In this document: positions 29,849-40,837 of the stretch, in pieces
How the letters are laid out: each line of letters begins with the position of its first letter
Numbering within the stretch: the stretch's first letter is position 1
Source of the DNA: Methylotenera sp. RIFCSPLOWO2_02_FULL_45_14
GTDB taxonomy: Bacteria > Pseudomonadota > Gammaproteobacteria > Burkholderiales > Methylophilaceae
Direction of reading: 5' to 3'
Assembly (NCBI GenBank): GCA_001803395.1
Contig: MHBU01000007.1
Coordinates: forward strand, 102,801 to 166,800
Length of the DNA stretch: 64,000 nt
The notes under the pieces: model-generated
The model's database searches: none
What the model was told of the DNA's origin: nothing
The model's input: the letters and a program-made list of their open reading frames with translations, nothing else
Translations under genes and position numbers: made by a program

Positions 29849-30622
29849 TTAAGTGCTGATGGTTATAAATGTGCCAATAATCACGTCTTGGCTTCTTAAT
29901 TCTTCCATGATTTGTAGCCCAAACTGAATAATTTTTCCAGAATCGGTTTCTCCAAGCTCGTTAGCAAGCAATGTGAGTGCTTGCTTACCAGTGTTTGTAT
30001 TTTGTTGTAATAATGTAAGCAATCTAAAAGTAACGGGGTTTAATTCCAAGAATTTCACATGGTCTTCAGCGTTGCGGTACACCAAAAGTTGTGTGCTTTG
30101 TTGTTTAGGTTTATTGCGTGATGAAATTTTATGTACGGCATAGTCATAATGCAGTAATTGCATGGCAGGTGTAAAAATCGGGTGTTCTGTGAGTAAATTC
30201 CCTGTCGGGTTTATTTTTTCACTTGCCAAGTTAGGCGTTGCCATTGATGCTATCAGCAGTTCTATCCATTCGTAATGGCAAAGGCTAAGCAGGTAGGGCG
30301 GTAATAAAGGTTGATTATTTGAGGTTGCGGTAGCTAAAAAACTTAAAAATTCTTCAGGAATTTGTCTAAAGATTGGCGTATTGGCAGCATGTTCTCGCAA
30401 AAAAGCTTGGGTTAACTTTAGCCATGCGCGTTTGCCGATTACTTTTTGTGCAACGGGAAAGCAAGCGGATACTGATGCAAATAGATTGTTAAACACAATT
30501 TCTTTATAAACTGCCATGCGTTTAACTGGTACGCCTTGAGGTCGAGGCTGATGGAGTGGGTCGCGAATATGTGCGGTAAATGCTAATTGGTAACGTTGAA
30601 AGCTCGGTAAGTCTGCACTCAT
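29849..30622 (-). CDS. bufC: DUF2063 partner protein of the DUF692 enzyme (BufC/HvfC type)
   Basis: The 257-residue protein begins SFQRYQLAFTAHIRDP and contains RMAVYKEIVFNNLFASVSACFPVAQKVIG, the DUF2063 signature, then FLREHAANTPIFRQIPEEFLSFL and a C-terminal RRE-like domain (about 190-257). In characterised systems this protein binds the precursor leader and delivers it to the DUF692 enzyme. The start overlaps the end of the DUF692 gene by four bases (ATGA), so translation is coupled. It is the last gene of the string; no strong terminator was seen behind it. Confidence 0.88.
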   Translation of the reverse strand: MSADLPSFQRYQLAFTAHIRDPLHQPRPQGVPVKRMAVYKEIVFNNLFASVSACFPVAQKVIGKRAWLKLTQAFLREHAANTPIFRQIPEEFLSFLATATSNNQPLLPPYLLSLCHYEWIELLIASMATPNLASEKINPTGNLLTEHPIFTPAMQLLHYDYAVHKISSRNKPKQQSTQLLVYRNAEDHVKFLELNPVTFRLLTLLQQNTNTGKQALTLLANELGETDSGKIIQFGLQIMEELRSQDVIIGTFITIST

Positions 30623-31488
30623 GATATTTGTTGCTTGCTGTGAATATGCTGCAGTCTGGCAATTTTGTTGACTTCGTTCATCAAAATATTCAAAGGCGGG
30701 ATATTAGTGTCCCTTTCCAGCAGGGTTGGGAACATGCCAAACAGTTGATAGGCATCTTCTAGCAATGCCCAGACGGGATCGATGATATCCTCGCCATGCG
30801 TATCTACCAATAAATTTGGAGTTTGTTGGTAATGCCCAGCAACGTGGCTATAGGTAATACGTTCACTAGGGATGCCGCGTAAAAACTCATGCGGGTTAAA
30901 GTTGAAGTTAACGCTATTGACGTAAATGTTATTGATGTCGAGGTGGAGTAAACAATCAGCTTCATCTAATACAGCTTTTAAAAACGTAAGCTCATTCATT
31001 TCAGAAACAGGTGCTGCTACATAAAACGAGGCGTTTTCAATGCCTATGCGCTGACCTAAAATATCTTGCGTTTGACGGATGCGTTTAGCGACGTAGTGTA
31101 CCGCTTCTTCGGTAAATGGAATGGGTAGCAGGTCATACAAATAGCCTTGCTCACCTTTGTAACCGTCAGTGGAATAACTCAAATGTTCGGTATAAACGGG
31201 GATCTGATACTGATGCAGAAAGCTTTTAACTTGTTTCAAAAAGTCAGCATTGAGTGGAGCTAGTCCTCCCAGTGAGAGACATAAGCCATGACAAACGATG
31301 GGGTAACGCTCAACAAACCAATCCAGCTGCTTTGCTGATTTACCGCCAACCCCTACCCAGTTCTCAGGTGCGATTTCAACGAAATTGATATTGGCAATTT
31401 CTGGTTGCCTATAAAGCGCTTGAATCTGGGGTATGAGCTCGCGCTTTAACCCCAGACCAACACCTTGTATTTGGCTAATAGATGCCAT
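30619..31488 (-). CDS. bufB: DUF692 multinuclear iron oxidase (MNIO; BufB/HvfB type)
   Basis: The 289-residue TIM-barrel enzyme is of the MNIO family (relatives: MbnB, ChrH, TglH). Visible metal-site motifs include GLKRELIPQI, FVEIAPENWVGVGGK, CHGLCLSLGG, YTEHLSYS, IENASFYVA, LLHLDINNIYVNSVNF, ITYSHVAGHYQ, DTHGEDII and LLERDTNIPP; the His, Glu and Asp residues in these strings are the usual di- or tri-iron ligands. Relatives convert precursor cysteines to thiooxazole or oxazolone/thioamide groups. It lies 12 bases after the Cys-repeat peptide, the likely substrate. Cytoplasmic. Family call is firm; the product chemistry here is inferred. Confidence 0.93.
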   Translation of the reverse strand: MASISQIQGVGLGLKRELIPQIQALYRQPEIANINFVEIAPENWVGVGGKSAKQLDWFVERYPIVCHGLCLSLGGLAPLNADFLKQVKSFLHQYQIPVYTEHLSYSTDGYKGEQGYLYDLLPIPFTEEAVHYVAKRIRQTQDILGQRIGIENASFYVAAPVSEMNELTFLKAVLDEADCLLHLDINNIYVNSVNFNFNPHEFLRGIPSERITYSHVAGHYQQTPNLLVDTHGEDIIDPVWALLEDAYQLFGMFPTLLERDTNIPPLNILMNEVNKIARLQHIHSKQQIS

Positions 31489-31500
31489 GACTAACTAAGG

Positions 31501-31863
31501 CTATTTTTTCTCAGCGCTACATGAACCTTCTTTCATTTTTTCAGCAGAACATGAGCCTTCTTTAGCTTTATCTGTAGCGCTAGCCCCTGCTTTTTTCTCG
31601 GCGCTGCATGAACCGTCTTTCATTTTCTCGGCTGAACATGAACCTTCTTTAGCTTTATCCGCTTTTTTCATGCTGGCACCACATTTACCAGCACCGCATT
31701 TGCCATCTTTTGTTTTTGTTTCGTGGTTATCCGCTACTTGATAGCCTGAAGAGAGTGATTTAACTGCAAACGGGTTTTCTGCGGCGTTAACTGTGGTTGC
31801 AGCAATAGATAAAGCGAATGCGCTGCCGATTGCAAGTGCGATAGTTTTTTGAGTATTGTTCAT
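31501..31863 (-). CDS. bufA: Cys-repeat secreted peptide precursor (bufferin/HvfA-like RiPP)
   Basis: The start is ATG at 31863, with AAAGGA seven bases upstream; the longer frame begins at TTG without such a site. The product has 120 residues. A Sec-type signal peptide (about 1-27, ending VNA) is followed by NPFAVKSLSSGYQVAD, a stretch typical of HvfA/BufA precursors. Then come a DGKCGAGKCG pair and four GSCS units, six Cys in all. Residues from DKAKEGSCSAEKMKDGSC onward are repeated after 29 residues. The DUF692 enzyme probably modifies these cysteines before export; bufferins bind copper in the periplasm. The repeat at DNA level suggests recent unit duplication. A mature function in copper handling is inference. 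Confidence 0.88.
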   Translation of the reverse strand: MNNTQKTIALAIGSAFALSIAATTVNAAENPFAVKSLSSGYQVADNHETKTKDGKCGAGKCGASMKKADKAKEGSCSAEKMKDGSCSAEKKAGASATDKAKEGSCSAEKMKEGSCSAEKK

Positions 31864-31907
31864 GGTAAATCCTTTCAAAATTATTAAGATAACGACTAAT
31901 TTGACTG

Positions 31908-32153
31908 CTAATCTATTTCAATTGCGTGCAAAATCCTGGTTTTTGCGTCTGTTGGGAGTTGTATCGTTTGGTTATGCACAGTTTCATTTTTAAGCTGCTG
32001 TATTGCAATACGTAACTGATTTAATTGTTGCTTAAAACGGTTGCAAGCCTTGCAAATAAAAAGATGAAACCTTAATTGCACACGTTCAGACCATGATAAT
32101 GGACGATCTAAAGATTGTGAAACGAGTTGACTGGCTTGTTTACATGTAAGCAT
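31908..32153 (-). CDS. Zinc-finger anti-sigma factor (ZAS type)
   Basis: The 81-residue cytoplasmic protein has a zinc-binding anti-sigma motif: Cys4 near the start, then His30, Cys34 and Cys37 in FHLFICKACNRF (H-x3-C-x2-C). No membrane segment follows, so it is a short soluble form. It starts 21 bases after the ECF sigma factor on the same strand and should hold it inactive. A cysteine-zinc centre can respond to metal or thiol stress, fitting the copper-type peptide operon downstream. The pairing is inferred from position and motif. Confidence 0.85.
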   Translation of the reverse strand: MLTCKQASQLVSQSLDRPLSWSERVQLRFHLFICKACNRFKQQLNQLRIAIQQLKNETVHNQTIQLPTDAKTRILHAIEID

Positions 32154-32174
32154 AATGTTTTTTCACTCCACTTT

Positions 32175-32732
32175 TCATGCACCAGTCCAGTTCAATTCTA
32201 AGCACTTTCTTAAACCCATTCGAGCGCGATACAACATCACCCAAGCGTTGGTCGCTGAAATATCGAGTTCCTTACAAATGTTTTCATTGTCTGTCTCATG
32301 CACATCACGCAACATAAAAATAGACTTTAATTTTTTAGGTAACTTGTTTATGCAGTTATCTAAAACACTCAAAAACTGTTTCTGTTCCAGTGTATTGTCT
32401 GGCATGTTGAATGTTTGCGGTTTATCGAGCCAGTGGCCCGATTGATCAAAAAAATCATCCATGCTGGTGTCAGTTGCATCTAAGTCAATTAAATCAGAGA
32501 TTGATTGCTCACGAAATTGTTTGCGCTGCAGGTCTATCATTTTATGTTTGAGTATGCCAGTGAGCCAAGTACGTGCAGATGAATTACCCTCAAAGCTATT
32601 GCTTTTAATGGCGGACAGCATGGTTTCTTGTACGGCATCTTCAGCAAGGTGCGGGTCGCGTAATCTTGCCAAGGCAAAACGATATAAGTAATCGCCATGA
32701 TCGTTCAGCCAGTCATTGACATTGCTTATCAT
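32175..32732 (-). CDS. ECF RNA polymerase sigma factor
   Basis: The 185-residue protein has a sigma-70 region 2 (about 1-75: YLYRFALARLRDPHLAEDAVQETMLSAI, then ARTWLTGILKHKMIDLQRKQ) and region 4 (about 125-180: LPKKLKSIFMLRDVHETDNENICKELDISATNAWVMLYRAR). These fit the extracytoplasmic-function class. The start codon overlaps the DUF1841 stop by four bases (ATGA), so translation is coupled to the rnf-nth-FIST string. It is followed by its anti-sigma factor. It probably directs transcription of the downstream peptide and modification genes. Its target promoter was not identified by eye. Confidence 0.92.
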   Translation of the reverse strand: MISNVNDWLNDHGDYLYRFALARLRDPHLAEDAVQETMLSAIKSNSFEGNSSARTWLTGILKHKMIDLQRKQFREQSISDLIDLDATDTSMDDFFDQSGHWLDKPQTFNMPDNTLEQKQFLSVLDNCINKLPKKLKSIFMLRDVHETDNENICKELDISATNAWVMLYRARMGLRKCLELNWTGA

Positions 32733-33172
32733 GCAGTTTTCCCAACTCTCTGATTTAGAAGGCTAAGGTAATATACTGAATCTAAAGGCGTATTATTGCG
32801 CTGCGCCTGCCAAATAGTTTCAGCTAGGCACTCTAATAAATCATGTTGTGCCATGTGTTTGTCGCCATGTTTTTGTTGTAATGTAGCATAAACTTCTATG
32901 ATGCCTATTGGCTGGTTGATGCTGATTTGCTCAATCACTGATAAATGCAAGCTTAGATGTAAAAACGGGTTGGTTGCTCCCATTTCTGGAAAGTATTGCT
33001 GATGCATGTAGCGTTCTGGCGCCTCTAACATAGGTTGGTATTCAGGATGCATTTGAATCACTTCAACGGCTATTTTCTCTAAATCGGAAAGCGGTGAATG
33101 CTGTTTAAATTTAGCCCACGCATCAAATAAAAACTGACGGGCTTGGTCGCGGCTTGGGTTGTATAAACTCAT
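32729..33172 (-). CDS. DUF1841 protein
   Basis: The 147-residue protein begins SLYNPSRDQARQFLFDAWAKF, with the central GATNPFLHLSLHLSVIEQISINQPIGI, the hallmark of DUF1841, a betaproteobacterial and gammaproteobacterial family of unknown function. Note the His residues in the HLSLHLS string and in ERYMHQQY, which could bind a metal. It has no signal peptide. It sits 14 bases after the FIST gene and overlaps the sigma-factor start by four bases. No function should be read from context alone. Confidence 0.85.
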   Translation of the reverse strand: MSLYNPSRDQARQFLFDAWAKFKQHSPLSDLEKIAVEVIQMHPEYQPMLEAPERYMHQQYFPEMGATNPFLHLSLHLSVIEQISINQPIGIIEVYATLQQKHGDKHMAQHDLLECLAETIWQAQRNNTPLDSVYYLSLLNQRVGKTA

Positions 33173-33186
33173 GATGGTTTCTAAAT

Positions 33187-34278
33187 CTAATCTGCTTTCG
33201 CACTAAATAATGACAGCACTGCTGAATAAGGTAGCAATTGATTGTACCCGCTCATTGAGGCGATTTCGCCATTGCCATAAAACCCTAATAAAGGCATCTG
33301 TGGAAACTGTTGCGTAATTACTTTCAAGTCTTGATCCGTACCTTCATAAAAATAGGGGCCGCGCCCTAAGCAAGAAAATAATAAAGCGAAATCAGGTTGG
33401 CTGCCTAATTTTTCAGCTAATTGCGCGGTCATAAGCGTTATATCTGCTTTGGCTATGGCGGTGTCACGCAGACCCCAACTTAAAAATTGCCCTGGTTTAA
33501 GAGGCTGAGCGAGCGTGATGCCGCCATTGGTTTCATCATAGCTAATCACCGTGGTTTGGTTGTATTCACCTTGTTTTATAGCCTCGGCACTCTCAGCATA
33601 TATAGCCATCACTAGGTGCAAAGGCACAGGTTCATGGCTTTTGCTATGGGCTTTCCAAGCTTTCTTTAAGCTGACATAAGGGCTGGTGTGACGATCTAAT
33701 AACAGAATGTCAAATTCATTGACCTGTTGAATTTGTTGGGGCAGGGTAAGTTGGCGTAAACCATGTGAAGTCTGAGTGGCAATATTGACGCCAGAAAAAA
33801 ATGCCTCTACATAACCTGAAACTTCACCTTTGGCATTTTGCCATACAGAAAATGGACCTTGACCTATCGCATCACCCGATACACCACCAAAGCGCGCAAC
33901 GTCATTATTCAACCATGTGCTGTTAATCGCATTGGGGGCGGAGAGTGTGAGTAATGGTTGCTGTGAGTGGTTATGTCTTGCGAGTTGCAAGGTGACATCA
34001 TCGCCAAATACCATGGCCGCAGCAGCGGGGGCATCTAACACCCAGTCTTCTTCGGTAAAAATACCGGTCGCGGAACAACCCATCACCTGTGTGCAATTGG
34101 CAGTCCTTGCCGCGGCTTTAATCGCGGCTTGTGGGTTGCTGGCGAATTCAGAGGTGAGTAAAAGTAATACACTGTTTGCTACGGTAATGCCTGCTTTGTG
34201 CATGGCGTTCGTCACGGCTTCAGCCGCAAGCTCAGGCTTGGCTTCATGGCCTAATACAATGCTGGTTGCAACTTTCAT
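33187..34278 (-). CDS. FIST-domain sensor protein
   Basis: The 363-residue protein has FIST_N (about 20-220: VLLLLTSEFASNPQAAIKAAAR, CTQVMGCSATGIF) and FIST_C (about 225-350, ending LFSCLGRGPYFYEGTDQDLKVI and GFYGNGEIASMSGYN). FIST domains are proposed sensors of small ligands such as amino acids, usually linked to signalling outputs. This one has no output domain of its own. Its end is 14 bases from DUF1841, and its start overlaps the end of nth by four bases. Similar FIST proteins occur next to nth in other betaproteobacteria, to my recollection. Ligand unknown. Confidence 0.88.
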   Translation of the reverse strand: MKVATSIVLGHEAKPELAAEAVTNAMHKAGITVANSVLLLLTSEFASNPQAAIKAAARTANCTQVMGCSATGIFTEEDWVLDAPAAAAMVFGDDVTLQLARHNHSQQPLLTLSAPNAINSTWLNNDVARFGGVSGDAIGQGPFSVWQNAKGEVSGYVEAFFSGVNIATQTSHGLRQLTLPQQIQQVNEFDILLLDRHTSPYVSLKKAWKAHSKSHEPVPLHLVMAIYAESAEAIKQGEYNQTTVISYDETNGGITLAQPLKPGQFLSWGLRDTAIAKADITLMTAQLAEKLGSQPDFALLFSCLGRGPYFYEGTDQDLKVITQQFPQMPLLGFYGNGEIASMSGYNQLLPYSAVLSLFSAKAD

Positions 34279-34940
34279 GATTGACTTTTTTGGTTAGGTT
34301 TTGGTGGAGCGTATTCTTTTGCTTGGTATTCGCATAGGTCTTCTATACAACATTGGGCACATTTTGGCTTGACGGCGGTGCAAGTATAACGGCCATGCAA
34401 AATGAGTAAATGATGTGCATCTTGCATAAACTCAGGGGGAATGGTTTTGAGATATTTTTTTTCAACTTCTAATACCGTTTTACCAGGTGCCAGTTTAATG
34501 CGGTTACCTAATCGAAACAAATGTGTATCCACGGCAATCGTCGGTTCGCCAAACGCTGTATTCAAAATCACATTTGCTGTTTTGCGGCCTACGCCTGGTA
34601 GTGCTTCTAAGGCTGCCCGCGTATTGGGCACTTGCGATTGATGCTGGGCGATGAGCATTTGGCAGGTCGCGAGCACGTTTTTGGCTTTTGAGTGATATAA
34701 GCCAATGGTTCTAATGTAATCCTCTAAACCATGGATGCCAAGCGCCAAAATTGCTTCAGGCGTATTGGCGATGGCAAATAGTTTACCCGTGGCCAGATTA
34801 ACGCTTTTATCAGTCGCCTGAGCCGATAAAATGACGGCAATCAACAGTTCAAACGTGCTGCTATGTTTGAGTTCTGTTGCAGGGTTGGGGATGGCAACGC
34901 TTAAGCGCTTGAAGATTTGATAGCGTTTTTCTGCATTCAT
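34275..34940 (-). CDS. nth: Endonuclease III
   Basis: The 221-residue base-excision DNA glycosylase/AP lyase has the helix-hairpin-helix motif LEALPGVGRKTANVILN with the catalytic Lys, the catalytic Asp in VDTHLFRLGNR, and a C-terminal [4Fe-4S] loop CTAVKPKCAQCCIEDLC with C-x6-C-x2-C-x5-C spacing. It removes oxidised pyrimidines. It starts five bases after rnfE, an arrangement also found in enteric bacteria (rsxE-nth). A short 3' extension (KEYAPPKPNQKSQS) is not unusual. Confidence 0.96.
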   Translation of the reverse strand: MNAEKRYQIFKRLSVAIPNPATELKHSSTFELLIAVILSAQATDKSVNLATGKLFAIANTPEAILALGIHGLEDYIRTIGLYHSKAKNVLATCQMLIAQHQSQVPNTRAALEALPGVGRKTANVILNTAFGEPTIAVDTHLFRLGNRIKLAPGKTVLEVEKKYLKTIPPEFMQDAHHLLILHGRYTCTAVKPKCAQCCIEDLCEYQAKEYAPPKPNQKSQS

Positions 34941-34945
34941 TCGAA

Positions 34946-35629
34946 CTAATGGCTCAGTACCGGCTCACCCTGAGGAGTCTGCAAATTTTCTTTTTCGCTT
35001 CTCCTGATTTCAATCCAATTGCGCGCCGCAATTAAAGTGCCTAAGCCCAGAAAAGCGCCAGGGGGTAGTATTGCCAGTAAAAACCCATGGTAATCTGGTA
35101 TTACGGTGAACATAAATTGCTTAGCTGCAGGTCCAAACACCAGGTCCAAACCGGAAAATAATGTTCCTTTGCCCACCAATTCACGCATGGCACCCAAAAA
35201 GCCTAAAACCAAGGCTAGGCCTGTTCCCATCATAAAGCCATCAAGCATTGAAGGAACAGGTGCGTTCTTGGCAGCAAAAGACTCTACTCGAGCAAGTACA
35301 ATACAGTTCACCACAATTAACGGAATGAAGATTCCCAATACTTTATGTAGTGGCTGAGCAAATGCGTTGATCGACATATCAATGACAGTTACTAATGCAG
35401 CAATGACCAAAATAAATACAGGTACCCGTATTTCACTCGGTATGAATCTACGTACCGGTGATACCGAGCCGTTAGATGCGGCCATCACAAGCGCGGTGGC
35501 GAACCCTAAACTTAAACCGTTGACAGCGGAAGTTGTGACTGCCAAGGTTGGGCAAAGACCTAATAACTGCACTAAGCCTGAATTTTGTTTCCATAGACCA
35601 TTGATGGTGATTTCTTTATAAATGCTCAT
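34946..35629 (-). CDS. rnfE: Rnf complex subunit E
   Basis: The 227-residue integral membrane subunit has about six helices. Typical strings are LWKQNSGLVQLLGLCPTLAVTTSAVNG at the start (half-channel Cys in LGLCPTLA), RVPVFILVIAALVTVIDM, and a GMGTGL-type helix with LGFLGAMRELVGKGTLF. RnfA and RnfE are homologous inverted partners. It overlaps rnfG by four bases. The complex moves electrons between ferredoxin and NAD(H) or reduces SoxR, coupled to ion flow. The order A-B-C-D-G-E is the canonical one. Confidence 0.95.
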   Translation of the reverse strand: MSIYKEITINGLWKQNSGLVQLLGLCPTLAVTTSAVNGLSLGFATALVMAASNGSVSPVRRFIPSEIRVPVFILVIAALVTVIDMSINAFAQPLHKVLGIFIPLIVVNCIVLARVESFAAKNAPVPSMLDGFMMGTGLALVLGFLGAMRELVGKGTLFSGLDLVFGPAAKQFMFTVIPDYHGFLLAILPPGAFLGLGTLIAARNWIEIRRSEKENLQTPQGEPVLSH

Positions 35630-36345
35630 GACTTATCCTTATGCTTGGATGTCTCTTCTGCGGCTTCTTCCAGCATGTGCTGATTTTGTTCAAAAAACTG
35701 TAACGCTTTTAAAACAGCTTTTACTACCGCACGCGGTGTGATGGTTGCTCCCGCCATATAATCAAACTTACCGCCATCTTTTTTTACGTGCCATTGCTCA
35801 ACAGGTGTCTTTTCGACAGATTCCTCATTAAATAGTTTTATCCAGTCACCATGCGCTATATCGATGTAGTCGCCTAGCCCTGGGGTTTCTTTATGCGCTA
35901 ATACACGAACACCGCTAACGGTGCCATCTGCACGAATTGCAATGAGCAGTTTAATATCGCCGCTGTAGCCATCATGCGCAATCGCTTCCAGTATGACAGC
36001 TGCTAGTTTGTGGTCGTGTTTGGCGAGATACGCTTTGCTAGGGATTTTGTTTCCAAGCAAGTCATTGGGCGAAATTTCGACGATATTTTTTAATAGATTG
36101 TTATCGTTAGCTTCATAATTATCATCATCTGAATGATTTTCATGGGCTTTATTTTTAGAATCTTTGTAGTAAGCCTCATCAGAAAGAATTTGCTTGAATA
36201 AAGCTAAGCGCGCTTCTGCCTCACTCTTCTCAATTGGTTCGCGTGTGATATTGAATACGTAAGCAAGTAACGCTGTTCCTACCAAGGCAAATGCAATCAT
36301 AGTGATTGCAGTCTTTAGCGTATGTTTAATGATAGTTTCTGGCAT
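35626..36345 (-). CDS. rnfG: Rnf complex subunit G (FMN-binding)
   Basis: The 239-residue protein has one N-terminal membrane helix (TAITMIAFALVGTALLAYVFN) and a periplasmic FMN_bind domain. The covalent flavin site is the Thr in AGATITPRAVV (about residue 198), where family members usually read SGAT-x-T/S. Also present are DGYSGDIKLLIAIRADG and HKETPGLGDYI. A charged insert near residues 60-85 (KAHENHSDDDNYEANDNN) is longer than usual. It overlaps rnfE by four bases and follows rnfD by 21. Confidence 0.93.
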   Translation of the reverse strand: MPETIIKHTLKTAITMIAFALVGTALLAYVFNITREPIEKSEAEARLALFKQILSDEAYYKDSKNKAHENHSDDDNYEANDNNLLKNIVEISPNDLLGNKIPSKAYLAKHDHKLAAVILEAIAHDGYSGDIKLLIAIRADGTVSGVRVLAHKETPGLGDYIDIAHGDWIKLFNEESVEKTPVEQWHVKKDGGKFDYMAGATITPRAVVKAVLKALQFFEQNQHMLEEAAEETSKHKDKS

Positions 36346-36366
36346 AATTTATTTTTGATGACCAAG

Positions 36367-37386
36367 CTATTTTGTATGACCAAATACGCGCGGCTGTGTG
36401 TGTGCATCAATCAGCGGCACACACATATTCATAATTAATACAGCAAACGCTACGCCATCCGGGTAACCGCCATAAACACGGATTAAATAGGTGAGTACAC
36501 CAACGCCCGCCGCAAAATACAACTTACCGCGTGGTGTCGTTGGTCCGCTTATGGGGTCAGTAATAATAAAAAACGCACACAACATTGATGCGCCACTCAT
36601 TAAATGAAACAGCGGGTTGGCAAAGTGTGCAGGATCGACCGCATAAAAAGCTAGTGATATGGCTGCCAGTGCTGCTAAAAACGCGGTAGGTAGATGCCAA
36701 CTGATAATGCGTTGCTGCATTAAATACAAGCCCCCTAGCAAATAAGCACCAGTAACAAATTCACCACCTTTTGCGCCGAATATGCCGAATATAGGTGCTT
36801 GAGTAATGCTAGTGACTTCGTGTTTCAGCATGAGTTGTGTTTTTAAGTAATCAAGTGGCGTGGCGGATGTGACAGCGTCAACTTTAACGCCAGCAGGCAG
36901 AACATTGCCAAAAATGAACTGCAATTGATCCATAAACCCAAGTTTTGTTTGCGCCAACATAAGCGGTGCAGGCCATTTTGTCATGATAATCGGGAATGAA
37001 ATGAGCAGAACAGCATAACCTACCATCGCTGGGTTGAACGGGTTGTAACCTAATCCGCCGTATAGCTGTTTGGCGATAACAATCGCAAAAAACGTTCCTA
37101 CCACAACTAGCCACCAAGGCGCTAATGGAGGTAATGCCAACGCAAGTAGCCATGCAGTAACGACGGCACTTAAGTCTGTCAAATACGGGCGAATCGGACG
37201 CTGACGGATTTTAAGCAAAATAGCCTCTGAAACTAAGGCGGTGATTGTCGCTAGTGATAGGGTAACTAAAATGCCACCGCCATAGACCCACGTGTAGGCA
37301 ATGATGCCTGGCACAAGCGCGAGCAACACTTTGAGCATGATAATGCTGACGGTTGGCGCGTCGGTAATGTAGGGTGAGCGGTTCAA
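36367..37386 (-). CDS. rnfD: Rnf complex subunit D
   Basis: The 339-residue membrane protein related to NqrB has about nine helices. Near residue 170-178 lies the DAVTSATPL motif, in which the second Thr binds FMN covalently in characterised RnfD. Other hallmarks are GLGYNPFNPAMVGYAVLL and FFIITDPISGPTTPRGKL, the family signature. N-terminal SPYITDAPTVSIIM is typical. It follows rnfC by 35 bases and probably carries electrons across the membrane together with RnfG. Confidence 0.95.
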   Translation of the reverse strand: MNRSPYITDAPTVSIIMLKVLLALVPGIIAYTWVYGGGILVTLSLATITALVSEAILLKIRQRPIRPYLTDLSAVVTAWLLALALPPLAPWWLVVVGTFFAIVIAKQLYGGLGYNPFNPAMVGYAVLLISFPIIMTKWPAPLMLAQTKLGFMDQLQFIFGNVLPAGVKVDAVTSATPLDYLKTQLMLKHEVTSITQAPIFGIFGAKGGEFVTGAYLLGGLYLMQQRIISWHLPTAFLAALAAISLAFYAVDPAHFANPLFHLMSGASMLCAFFIITDPISGPTTPRGKLYFAAGVGVLTYLIRVYGGYPDGVAFAVLIMNMCVPLIDAHTQPRVFGHTK

Positions 37387-37421
37387 GTATTTTTTCCTAG
37401 TAACGTTGTCTGTTTTTGTTT

Positions 37422-39344
37422 CTAATCCGAATTTTTTGCATCAACGGTTTGCTTGACTTTCTCGCGTATAGCATCAATTTCACTGATTTCGGCTTGTACC
37501 GTAGCGCTTATATTTTCAATATTTTTAGGCGCCACACCAGCTTGCGCTGCCGCTAATTTCTGTGCTTTTGCACGCTCGATTGCGGCGGCAATCAGTGCTT
37601 GCTTATCTTTTTTTGCCTGCTCGGTTACAGCCTGTTCAACTTTGGCTTGCTCGGCCATGGCTGATTCATTGGTGTGGCTTTGAGCCTCCGCCGGTGTTGC
37701 TTTCGTTTCTTCTTGGCTATTGTTTATTTGTCCCTCAGCATGAGCTACTGCTAATTTTAACGCTTTTGCGCGTTCAACAGCTGCTGCAATGGCGGCTTTT
37801 TTTGCATCATCCGCAGCCATAGTATTTGCAGGTTTTTCGCCTTCTGTTTTTGGCTCATCTGTTTTAGCGCTGGCAGCACGTTCTGCGTGTTTTTGCGCAC
37901 GTTCTAATTTTTCACGCTCAATACGCGCTAGCCTGAATTCATTGCGCTCACGTGCGAGGTCAGCCGCTTCTTTAGCTTTATCTGCCGCAATAATTTCACT
38001 TTTTGCATAGCGATAATATTGTACGAGTGGAATATTGCTAGGGCACACATAGGTGCAGCAGCCGCATTCAATGCAGTCAAATAAATTGTAATCGCGCGCT
38101 TTTTCAAAATTATCTGACTTTGCAAACCAGTAAAGTTCTTGTGGCTGCAAGTTGACTGGGCAGGCATCTGCGCAGCGCGCGCAGCGAATGCATGGCATCG
38201 CTGGCGGAGGCGGTGCAAATAGATCGGGCGTTGCCGCAATAATGCAATTTGCAGCCTTGGTGATCGGCACATCGATGGTGGGTAAATCAAACCCCATCAT
38301 GGGGCCACCCATAATAAAATGTGTGGTGTCTGCTTTAGCGCCACCAGCCGCAGTGATTAATGACTGTAACGGTGTGCCAAATAAAACTTCAAAGTTTTGC
38401 GGCGAATTTACGCTACCAGTCATAGTCACAATACGGTTAACGGCAGGTTCGCCAAATGCGAAGTATCGATAAATCGCCAAAACTGTCGCCACGTTAAATA
38501 CTTGTACGCCAACGTCAGTTGAGCGTTTGTCATGTGGGATTTCGGTGCCTAATAGCAAATGAATCAAACGACGTGCATCACCGCTAGGGTAGAGCGTTGG
38601 CACTGCTTTTACCGATACGTTAGCAAGCGATTTGCAAGCTTCACTCATTGCAATTGTCGCTTCTGGTTTGTTGTCTTCGATGCCAATAACACAATTTTCA
38701 GCACCTAGTAGATACTGAACTATTTCTATGCCTTTAACGATTTCGTCAGCACGTTCACGCATCAGCATGTCATCACAAGTGATATACGGTTCACATTCGG
38801 CAGCGTTAATCACTAAGGTGTGCACATGAGATTTTCCATCAGCACGTACTTTGATGTGGGTAGGAAAGGTGGCGCCACCCAAGCCAACGATACCTGATAA
38901 ACGTAAGCTAGCTACCAGATCTTTTTTTGCCGTGTTACGCCAATCTACTGGCTGCAATGTAGCCCATGTGTCTTTACCGTCAGGTGTTAAGGTGATGCAC
39001 ATGTCTGGCAGACCAGAGGGGTGGGGAATCACTTCTTTACTGATGGCTGTTACCGTGCCTGAGGTCGGGGCATGGATTGCTGCTGATACACTGCCTTCAG
39101 CCTCTGCCAGCATTTGCCCTTTAAGTACATGGTCGCTAACGTGTACTTTGATTTTTGGTATATAACCAACATGCTGGCGTAACGGTAGAATGAGCTTTTC
39201 AGGGATGGCAAGTGTACCGATTGGGCGCGTCGTCGAATCGTCTTTATATCCTGGCGGATGGACGCCACCATTGAATTTATGCACATCAGTCGATGTGGAT
39301 TGACCTCGGATTAGTCTGCTGGTGAATTGAATGATTGAATTCAT
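37422..39344 (-). CDS. rnfC: Rnf complex subunit C
   Basis: The 640-residue peripheral subunit is the NADH-binding entry. It begins with a barrel-sandwich part ([15 protein letters not shown]), followed by a flavin/NADH fold with [19 protein letters not shown] and [15 protein letters not shown], and two [4Fe-4S] motifs [17 protein letters not shown] and [17 protein letters not shown]. The tail (about 460-640) is Ala/Lys/Glu-rich and repeats a [16 protein letters not shown]-like helix twice; such tails are common in proteobacterial RnfC. Translation of rnfC overlaps the end of rnfB by four bases. Confidence 0.95.
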
Positions 39345-39916
39345 AAAGGCGCATTGCTCCCAGTTGAAGGCAACGCCTTAATCGGGATGATAGGGTATTT
39401 CCACTTCCAGTTATCGGGTGTTTCAGTAATGGGCTGCATGGTGATGCAATCCACAGGGCAGGGTGCCAGACATAGCTCACACCCAGTACATTCTGAGGCG
39501 ATAATGGTGTGCATGTGTTTTGCCGCACCTAAAATAGCATCTACAGGGCAAGCCTGAATGCACAGCGTGCAGCCAATACAAGTGTTCTCATCAATAAATG
39601 CGACAGATTTAGGTTTGGGAGCGCCATGTTCAGCGTTGAGCGGTTTGTATTCCACCCCCATCAAGTCTGCCAAAGCGTGTGCGCCAGCATCGCCGCCAGG
39701 CGGGCATTGGTTAATGTCTGCCTCGCCTTTGGCAATGGCGGTCGCATAAGGTTTGCAGCCTGGGTAGCCACATTGGCCGCACTGTGTTTGTGGCAAAATC
39801 GCATCAATGCGTGCCACTAAGGGGTCACCTTCAACTTTGAATAGCAGAGCAGAAATGCCCAAAACCACGCCAAGTAGCAAGGCTAAGCCAAGCATAATAT
39901 ATAGAGCAGTTAACAT
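39341..39916 (-). CDS. rnfB: Rnf complex subunit B (ferredoxin-type)
   Basis: The 191-residue protein has one N-terminal helix ([22 protein letters not shown]), then the Fe-S domain [15 protein letters not shown] of the 4Fe-4S RnfB type, and two ferredoxin motifs [17 protein letters not shown] and [16 protein letters not shown]. It passes electrons between ferredoxin and the rest of the complex. The C-terminal tail ([17 protein letters not shown]) is typical of betaproteobacterial RnfB. It starts 23 bases after rnfA. Confidence 0.95.
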
Positions 39917-39939
39917 ATCACTAGAGTCAGTACCTAAAG

Positions 39940-40533
39940 CTAATATTTATCAAGTCCAGCAAAGCCCATAAATGCCAAACTCATGAGTGATGCGGTAATC
40001 ATGGCCATTGCAGAACCTTTAAGTACAACGGGGATGTCCGCAGCTTCTAATCTTTCGCGCATTGAAGCAAATAATATCAATACCATTGAAAAGCCAATTG
40101 CGCCACCCATGCCAAAAAGTAGGGACTCCAAAAAACTGTGACTGGCTTGCGCATTTAAGAGCGGGATGCCTAATACGGCGCAGTTGGTAGTGATGAGCGG
40201 CAGAAAAATACCTAGTGCCTGGTGTAATGAAGGAAAGTTCTTTTCCATCACCATTTCGGTAAACTGTACAACGCCGGCAATAATCACAATGAATGAGAGC
40301 GTACGTAGATATTCCAAGCCGTTTGGTTCAAGCAGATAGTGATTGATACCCCAACTGGTCATGGAACCTATGCTTAGTACAAAAGCAGTGGCACCAGCCA
40401 TGCCGATAGAGGCTTCTAGCTTTTTAGAAACACCCATGAACGGGCATAAGCCTAAAATTTTAACCAGCACGATGTTATTCACAAGTACTGTGCCAATTAA
40501 AATCATGATGTAGTGATGGAAATCAAAGGTCAT
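39940..40533 (-). CDS. rnfA: Rnf complex subunit A
   Basis: The ATG at 40533 is chosen ([18 protein letters not shown]), which aligns with known RnfA N-termini; a longer frame to 40581 begins at TTG without a ribosome site. The product has 197 residues and six helices, with [22 protein letters not shown] (half-channel Cys) and [14 protein letters not shown], both diagnostic. It is the first gene of the rnf string, and the divergent dapA starts 304 bases away. The operon promoter must lie in that gap. Confidence 0.94.
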
Positions 40534-40837
40534 ATTCAAAACTTTGTCAGAAGTATAGCTAACATCAAAAGCGGCCTGCAATCATATGATTATACAGTGT
40601 GTGTGACCGTTTTTATTGAGTAAAGTGCACTTAACGTATTTTTTTGATACAACAGTTTGATACAACAGTAAGACGAACTATCTGGCTGGAAAATTCTAAA
40701 TTGGCAGTATTTTGTACTATCTTAATATTCAAATGGTTGTTTATTCAATATTTTCTGTCAAGTTTACATCTTAGGGTGTGTTTATTTATCTGGCTTTTAA
40801 GTTAAAATACAAAATTATGAATTAGTTTAGGTTTGCT
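40534..40837. other. Divergent control region between rnfA and dapA
   Basis: This 304-base AT-rich region has no gene. It contains a perfect 13-base tandem repeat (TTTGATACAACAG) at 40643-40655 and 40656-40668, about 110-135 bases upstream of the rnfA start. Further to the right AT-rich sequence precedes dapA. Both operons must be started from here. Confidence 0.6.
40643..40668. repeat. Perfect 13-base tandem repeat upstream of rnfA
   Basis: TTTGATACAACAG occurs twice back to back. It is in the divergent promoter region of the rnf/buf string and dapA. It could be a regulator site or chance slippage. Confidence 0.6.

Follow-up and report, generated by a model that had tools for sequence, protein, structure and literature searches.

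A putative promoter within the sigma factor gene and a variant cysteine core in an HvfABC-like operon of Methylotenera

The genome of Methylotenera sp. RIFCSPLOWO2_02_FULL_45_14, a freshwater methylotroph, carries on contig MHBU01000007.1 a run of genes for an extracytoplasmic function (ECF) sigma factor, a zinc-binding anti-sigma (ZAS) factor, the precursor of a ribosomally synthesised and post-translationally modified peptide (RiPP), a multinuclear iron oxidase (MNIO) and its partner protein. The locus raises two questions: where would the sigma factor act to switch these genes on, and how would the enzyme deal with a core in which four of six cysteines are followed by serine? We addressed them in a stretch of 64,000 nucleotides (positions 102,801 to 166,800 of the contig), here called the window, and in its relatives. 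We read the locus as a captophorin/oxazolin-type (HvfABC-like, MNIO-PME1) copper-RiPP operon within an envelope-stress regulon, and put the probability of this explanation as a whole at about 0.75. In the sigma family of the Methylophilaceae and of many other members of the class, the DNA encoding region 4 probably doubles as a promoter that the sigma factor itself reads, switching on the inhibitor and the output and not the sigma factor, with the copper-peptide core and the enzyme gate residue co-evolving in the Methylophilaceae. Both the in-gene element and the changed active-site residue were missing from the first-pass annotation of this DNA.

A promoter-like element inside the sigma gene

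The two features concerned are:

32175..32732, minus strand: ECF sigma factor, 185 residues (TIGR02943, 203.4 bits, cut-off 162.2)
32251..32276, minus strand: putative sigma-dependent promoter TGTAAG-N16-CGAC in the sigma gene, codons 153-161 (from pattern, codon constraint and recurrence)

The sigma factor matches Sigma70_r2 (52.4 bits, cut-off 24) and Sigma70_r4_2 (43.5 bits, cut-off 25.7), with region 4 spanning residues 124-171. The element was first flagged by comparing the DNA upstream of msrB with the operon; since other genes give similar matches, the raw two-block match between msrB and the sigma gene is near chance when taken alone, and only the codon and recurrence tests led us to retain it. 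TGTAAG-N16-CGAC has a single match in the window, where 0.09 are expected. Codons 153-154 read TGT AAG in all 60 distinct Methylophilaceae sigma genes; AAG makes up 34% of the lysine codons in these genes, and the other conserved lysine columns favour AAA (68-77%). The third base of codon 160 is G in 60/60 genes, with the encoded residue varying among Ala, Pro, Thr, Ser and Lys, and the codon is xCG in 59 of them (background 478/2044). With codons 150-165 left out of the tree building, codon 160 underwent 17 first-base changes on the resulting tree and no third-base change. Codons 153 and 154 likewise had no third-base change, compared with at least five in each of the remaining 74 conserved degenerate codons and a median of 13 over all 76.

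The element also recurs at a fixed place. It lies within the sigma gene in 54 of the 57 named sigma-bearing loci (53 by count plus L071, where the hit range is short). No antisense copy was found among the named sigma-bearing loci and no copy upstream of the sigma gene in 150,813 bases over 57 loci; a looser pattern gave one further site between the sigma and MNIO genes (L054). The sigma-less loci L034 and L081 are also without the element. Two other candidate positions were rejected: in the 44 bp immediately ahead of the precursor gene only the ribosome-binding site is conserved (judged by eye on the Methylophilaceae rows), and near the DUF1841 start the Neisseria consensus gave, at two mismatches, four sense matches and one antisense match in 66 loci.

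Outside sigma genes, a longer form of the element stands before stress genes. TGTAAGG-N15-CGACYRAT occurs 48 times, in 35 of the 52 genus genomes, with no match for the reversed control; family-wide there are 113 matches in 75 of 150 genomes, not sorted by gene, and 4 for the reversed control. Twenty-nine of the genus matches are of the sigma-gene form by sequence, one of which was fetched (L291). The other 19 precede genes for msrB (6), msrP-like proteins (5), thioredoxin with a CcdA-like protein (2), DUF1223-like proteins (2), BufA2 (1), HvfX (1) and a glucokinase-like protein (1), with one unassigned; the labels CcdA and DUF1223 are our assumption. BufA2 scores 97.3 bits (cut-off 60), HvfX 132.2 bits (cut-off 80), and MsrB of the window genome passes its model. 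Two cut fragments, msrP-like (125 against 207) and glucokinase-like (143 against 333), and a whole thioredoxin (55.2 against 96.8) fall below their cut-offs, and the remaining msrP-like, thioredoxin and other copies were named by likeness. Seventeen of the 19 sites touch no same-strand open reading frame (ORF) of at least 70 codons, and those in L290 and L293 touch the edge of one; the sites in L288 and L295 overlap opposite-strand ORFs of 121 and 117 codons. In the window genome the sole exact site of the longer pattern precedes msrB. The copy in the sigma gene deviates from it by a single base, as do four other sites, a number close to that of the control (3). The element has no match in the genomes of about 0.8-1.4 Mb from the Methylophilaceae genera g284 and g286.

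Some relatives carry more than one copy. L291 (genome G014) has a second sigma/anti-sigma/precursor set, and the element lies within that sigma gene too. In L294 (genome G019) the element is followed by a tandem pair of bufferin A2-like precursors, of which the first exceeds the cut-off, and a second MNIO, 40% identical, lies near them; two copper RiPPs may be under a single sigma factor in this genome. Four other sigma/ZAS loci (L305, L313, L317 and L318) show a second copy about 0.8 kb past the sigma start, before genes whose products look membrane-bound or secreted.

The variant core and the enzyme gate

Behind the sigma gene, and overlapping its start, lie:

31908..32153, minus strand: ZAS anti-sigma factor, 81 residues, with Cys4/His30/Cys34/Cys37 (NF052368, 80.6 bits, cut-off 50; zf-HC2, 35.5 bits, cut-off 22.2)
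31501..31863, minus strand: secreted RiPP precursor, 120 residues from ATG, GKCGAGKCG plus four GSCS units
30619..31488, minus strand: HvfB-type MNIO (NF003818, 390.9 bits, cut-off 360), Asp260 the presumed catalytic base, Thr261 next to it
29849..30622, minus strand: HvfC-type PME1/DUF2063 partner (NF050145, 259.6 bits, cut-off 142; DUF2063, 80.5 bits, cut-off 27.2; NGO1945_C)
32729..33172, minus strand: DUF1841 protein, its 3′ end overlapping the sigma start, without known RiPP role

The precursor form of 125 residues in the ORF list results from a start at a TTG further upstream. The MNIO also matches its family, MbnB_TglH_ChrH, at 331.3 bits (cut-off 25); it is the only match to this enzyme in the window genome (about 2.1 Mb, 98% complete), and its closest named relatives are Methylotenera. 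Positions and profile matches agree with the first-pass annotation on five consecutive minus-strand genes of these families, and we found the features that it had read in them: a Sec-like N-terminus (by eye), DGKCGAGKCG followed by four GSCS units with six cysteines in total, and the DUF692 motifs DINNIYVN, DTHGE and ERDTN. Of its designation 'bufferin/HvfABC type' the HvfABC half stands, since the HvfB and HvfC models are passed, and the bufferin half does not, the MNIO reaching 262.5 bits with the BufB model NF050167 (cut-off 310). No DoxX gene adjoins the operon, as it had noted; the sole PF07681 (DoxX) match in the window genome is on another contig, at 17.1 bits against an HvfX cut-off of 80. 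The MNIO, PME1 and cysteine-rich precursor genes are mutually adjacent, which is the layout of a captophorin operon. PMC13097082 describes captophorins as products of MNIO-PME1 pairs, with fontiphorin, oxazolin and gonophorin bearing 5-thiooxazoles, fontiphorin losing 4 H per repeat, and copper binding shown for fontiphorin and gonophorin; the oxazolone/thioamide chemistry of the annotation has thereby been superseded, oxazolin included. For bulbicupramide the loss is 4 H for each EGKCG cysteine (PMC12538549).

For the comparisons, 220 MNIO loci were reduced to 195 distinct ones (25 duplicate enzymes dropped) and to 167 with a precursor (28 without one of at least two cysteines dropped). These comprise 69 from Methylophilaceae, namely 30 genus loci and 39 named ones, assigned by hit-list place and 62-100% enzyme identity (11 of the 63 named loci counted as Methylophilaceae carry only higher-rank titles), and 98 others, namely 16 named loci and 82 from a class search. 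Because the class-search places fetched all exceed the HvfB cut-off, more distant MNIOs are unrepresented.

A search of MNIO-neighbour precursors for GSCS, suggested in the annotation, returned it in 31 of the 69 precursors from Methylophilaceae and in none of the 98 others; cysteine followed by Ser, His or Asn occurs in 45/69 and 6/98, respectively. The proposal of a new variant holds for the core, which is widespread in Methylophilaceae and not peculiar to the window genome. The main texts of PMC12452194 and PMC13097082 do not contain GSCS, and no paper on the operon locus was among the titles listed for Methylotenera/Methylophilaceae. Methylophilaceae cores grade from EGKCG through EGKCS to EGSCS and EGSCH. 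Behind the leader, which in the window contains the stretch ENPFAVKSLSSGYQVAD, a GKC-x-GKC-like pair is found in 68/69 precursors and the tail units drift. Four loci (L052, L053, L062 and L063) have histidine-bearing tail units (CSHDK, CHHDK, CNHDK and CSHEK), possibly providing extra metal ligands, and L028 (genus genome G042) has a precursor with KCATGQCG and no tail cysteine, the available DNA ending just upstream.

The enzymes vary as well. The gate residue, directly after ERD, is Thr261 in the window and aligns with Phe in PDB 3BWW; it is Phe in 90/98 of the other enzymes and in 0/69 from Methylophilaceae. FonB Phe250 is the neighbour of Asp249, proposed as the catalytic base, and touches residues 3 and 5 of the substrate, on either side of the cysteine; F250D broadens tolerance at position 3 (PMC13097082). 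Where the captophorin Lys-Cys group conserves this Phe, the window has Thr261, and the presumed counterpart of FonB Arg15/Arg16 is Lys-Arg (GLKRE), most class-wide loci having Arg-Arg. Among the others, Gly follows Cys in 616/639 cases with a Phe gate and 36/46 with non-Phe gates; in Methylophilaceae it does so in 101/268 cases with T/N/L/I gates and 120/134 with S/A/V gates. A tree-corrected categorical scan of the pooled set ranked the gate first of 217 columns (p=1.4e-10; runner-up 8.9e-5), and 0/500 permutations were as strong. Outside Methylophilaceae, Ala or Ser follows at least one Cys in 6/8 non-Phe and 10/90 Phe loci (Fisher p=1.8e-4, which ignores the tree). The grouping {F,S,A,V} versus {T,N,L,I} was set aside as tree-corrected evidence, having been picked post hoc, and a claim for position -1 (Lys) was dropped (gate rank 3, p=0.0013).

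Several observations weigh against a link between gate and core. Equating the gate column with FonB Phe250 is itself inferred from the ERDF motif. The gate falls to rank 5 in a scan of Methylophilaceae only (p=0.0014) and to rank 8 outside them (p=0.0026), neither significant over all columns, and in each subset other columns outrank it. There are also discordant loci: L097 has a Phe gate though 4/5 of its cysteines precede Ser, as do L216 and L217 though 4/6 precede Ala; L058, L087 and L088 combine a Ser gate with Cys-Ser, and L004 (Thr gate) and L081 (Ile gate) have no Cys-Ser. Finally, among position-5 variants FonBC processed Ala alone, although a Cys-Tyr motif was modified once (PMC13097082), so that Cys-Ser processing is conjectural. 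Nevertheless, the gate hypothesis was set down before residues were tabulated, and each subset p-value supports it. We judge the evidence for joint change of the gate and the residue following Cys to be good, though short of decisive.

The strictness of FonBC at position 5 also favours an explanation in which only the GKCGAGKCG pair becomes thiooxazole and the four GSCS cysteines stay thiols that bind metal or react with oxidants, making the peptide half captophorin, half metallothionein-like. FonBC modified a two-repeat and not a one-repeat substrate (PMC13097082), the pair is the near-invariant part of Methylophilaceae cores above a drifting tail, and the precursor without tail cysteines and the tail units with His fit as well. 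However, the tail cysteine is retained in 198/199 recognisable units, a count whose pattern favours intact units, and in the pooled set the gate and the residue following Cys vary together; we regard half modification as somewhat unlikely. Drift would account for the same data differently, the operon being an ordinary oxazolin/captophorin one, GSCS the neutral decay of a redundant repeat, and the change from Phe to Thr unrelated lineage history. With Phe absent from all 69 Methylophilaceae, a single early loss could account for a large part of the pooled association, and neither subset is significant after correction; set against this, the gate ranks first in the pooled scan with no permutation as strong, and the association of Ala or Ser with non-Phe gates reappears outside the family. 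Drift alone seems to us an unlikely account.

Weighing the promoter and its circuit

The co-variation of gate and core aside, the in-gene promoter can be judged by its reach beyond the family and by its likeness to known promoters. In a class-wide set, 30 of 33 places were examined, giving 29 sigma homologues and the window copy. GTMAG-N16-CGWC lies within the gene in 18/29 homologues, codon 160 is xCG in 25/29 (background 309/1054), codon 153 is TGT in 23/28 Cys (background 0.56) and codon 154 AAG in 18/19 Lys (background 0.54). An Hx3Cx2C motif is encoded downstream of sigma, in some frame, at 29/30 loci, window copy included. The in-gene arrangement thus probably predates the Methylophilaceae, though the evidence is weaker beyond the family. 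In the window, GTAAGGAAC-N12-CGACCAAC has the spacing of the Neisseria consensus GTMAGBWTT-N12/13-CGTCTAAH, though with four mismatches; the recurrence of the element before stress genes and across the family's genomes supports a lineage variant of the Neisseria sigmaE promoter. Literature searches, which mostly missed subscription journals, listed no title on such an in-gene promoter, so as far as they reach the promoter-like element within the sigma gene appears to be new.

A promoter is made less certain by the 11/29 class-wide homologues without the full internal element, by columns 153-154 lying outside the eight most codon-biased columns listed for that set, by the window -10 (CGACCAAC) being one base off the longer pattern, and by four mismatches to the Neisseria sigmaE consensus. 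The fixed bases could instead serve translation or coding, as an internal Shine-Dalgarno-like TAAGGA or through codon choice near the recognition helix: the stretch does encode part of region 4, TAAGGA resembles a ribosome-binding site, and the constraint weakens class-wide. Yet the CGAC block is kept despite 17 first-base changes in its codon, both blocks recur at equal spacing outside genes, before stress genes, and that spacing fits the Neisseria consensus, which makes a role in translation or coding alone quite improbable. That the small protein is an unmodified secreted cysteine protein, with the MNIO acting on another substrate, is hardly tenable: the precursor does score below both HvfA models (NF050188, 26.4 against 95; NF050137, 16.8 against 19.5), a point against our assignment, but a precursor-like ORF precedes the MNIO by at most 1.5 kb in 167/195 distinct loci (a filter-based count), the leader motif is present in 67/69 Methylophilaceae precursors, and characterised homologues modify the product of the corresponding gene (PMC13097082, PMC12538549).

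The surroundings bear on how the sigma gene itself would be read. DUF1841 is present in 55/57 loci, and 55 of the 57 named Methylophilaceae loci with more than 2.6 kb of upstream DNA retain sigma and anti-sigma ahead of the RiPP genes; L034 and L081 keep the RiPP genes behind DUF1841 and lack both regulators. Further upstream, on the same strand, lie a gene for a FIST-domain protein and beyond it what we take to be an endonuclease III-like gene and an Rnf-like complex (window 33187-40581). The genes overlap or are separated by short gaps, which suggests that a long transcript runs into sigma from upstream. A hairpin 3′ of the DUF2063 gene is weak (z -1.25).

In the circuit that we propose, the sigma gene would be read together with its upstream neighbours and the ZAS anti-sigma factor would restrain the protein until it is released by a redox or metal signal at the envelope. 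Free sigma would initiate at TGTAAG-N16-CGAC and induce anti-sigma, precursor, MNIO and partner; because the element lies within the sigma gene, sigma would not induce itself, and the circuit would carry negative feedback on its output and lack a positive loop. Periplasmic methionine-sulfoxide repair would be under the same sigma factor, through msrB/A in the window genome and, in relatives, msrP, thioredoxin-CcdA-like, bufferin A2 and HvfX genes. HvfC would bind the leader and the MNIO turn cysteines into 5-thiooxazoles ahead of Sec export. With Thr261 instead of Phe, the residue after Cys would find a wider pocket, allowing Cys-Ser units to be processed besides Cys-Gly, and the exported peptide would bind copper. 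We infer promoter activity and the feedback circuit from sequence, and GSCS modification, copper binding and the inducing signal by analogy; the most likely role is envelope protection against copper and oxidant stress.

Sigma control of an HvfABC-kind operon is not new in itself, being known in Neisseria and Haemophilus, so that the annotation's 'sigma-controlled' system fits the sigma and anti-sigma genes without being a novelty. The Neisseria NMB2140-2145 operon encodes sigmaE and the ZAS anti-sigma factor MseR, whose Cys4, Cys34 and Cys37 are important for function, and sigmaE governs msrA/msrB (PMC2893595). The window shares with it the ECF sigma factor, a ZAS protein (Hx3Cx2C plus Cys4) with Cys4/His30/Cys34/Cys37 at the positions named in MseR, the promoter spacing, genes of like kind (the DoxX-like one only in Neisseria) and a methionine-sulfoxide reductase in the regulon. 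Unlike in Neisseria, where a single autoregulated transcript is reported to include sigma, the element in the window is within the sigma gene and none was found upstream. Haemophilus RpoE2/HrsE likewise pairs an ECF sigma factor with a small cytoplasmic anti-sigma factor and governs msrAB and a homologous DUF2063/UPF0276/DoxX cluster (PMC7907618), but that cluster is apart from rpoE2, whereas here the RiPP genes adjoin sigma. With the captophorins (FonABC, HvfABC, Ngo) the window shares MNIO, PME1 (DUF2063) and a precursor with GKCG units, and differs in having GSCS at 4/6 cysteines, Thr for the usual Phe and no HvfX/DoxX in the operon; most EGKCG clusters comprise RiPP, MNIO, DUF2063 and DoxX genes (PMC12452194). 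The Caulobacter bufferins Buf1/Buf2 share the large MNIO cluster and a secreted precursor, and a BufA2 gene follows the element in L294. They differ in that the window enzyme is below the BufB cut-off, no DUF2282 match is present, and the anti-sigma factor is of the zf-HC2 kind rather than NrsF, the gene for which accompanies Buf1 together with a sigma gene (PMC12452194).

At the sequence level, and in a testable form, natural variation points to the gate residue and the residue after Cys as a basis of cysteine choice by MNIOs, which bears on the design of copper-binding peptides. The element further points to a compact circuit of feedback, in which one DNA stretch would encode a protein and also act as promoter for it, and the predicted single regulon would join copper RiPPs with methionine-sulfoxide repair and, in relatives, with bufferin and HvfX genes.

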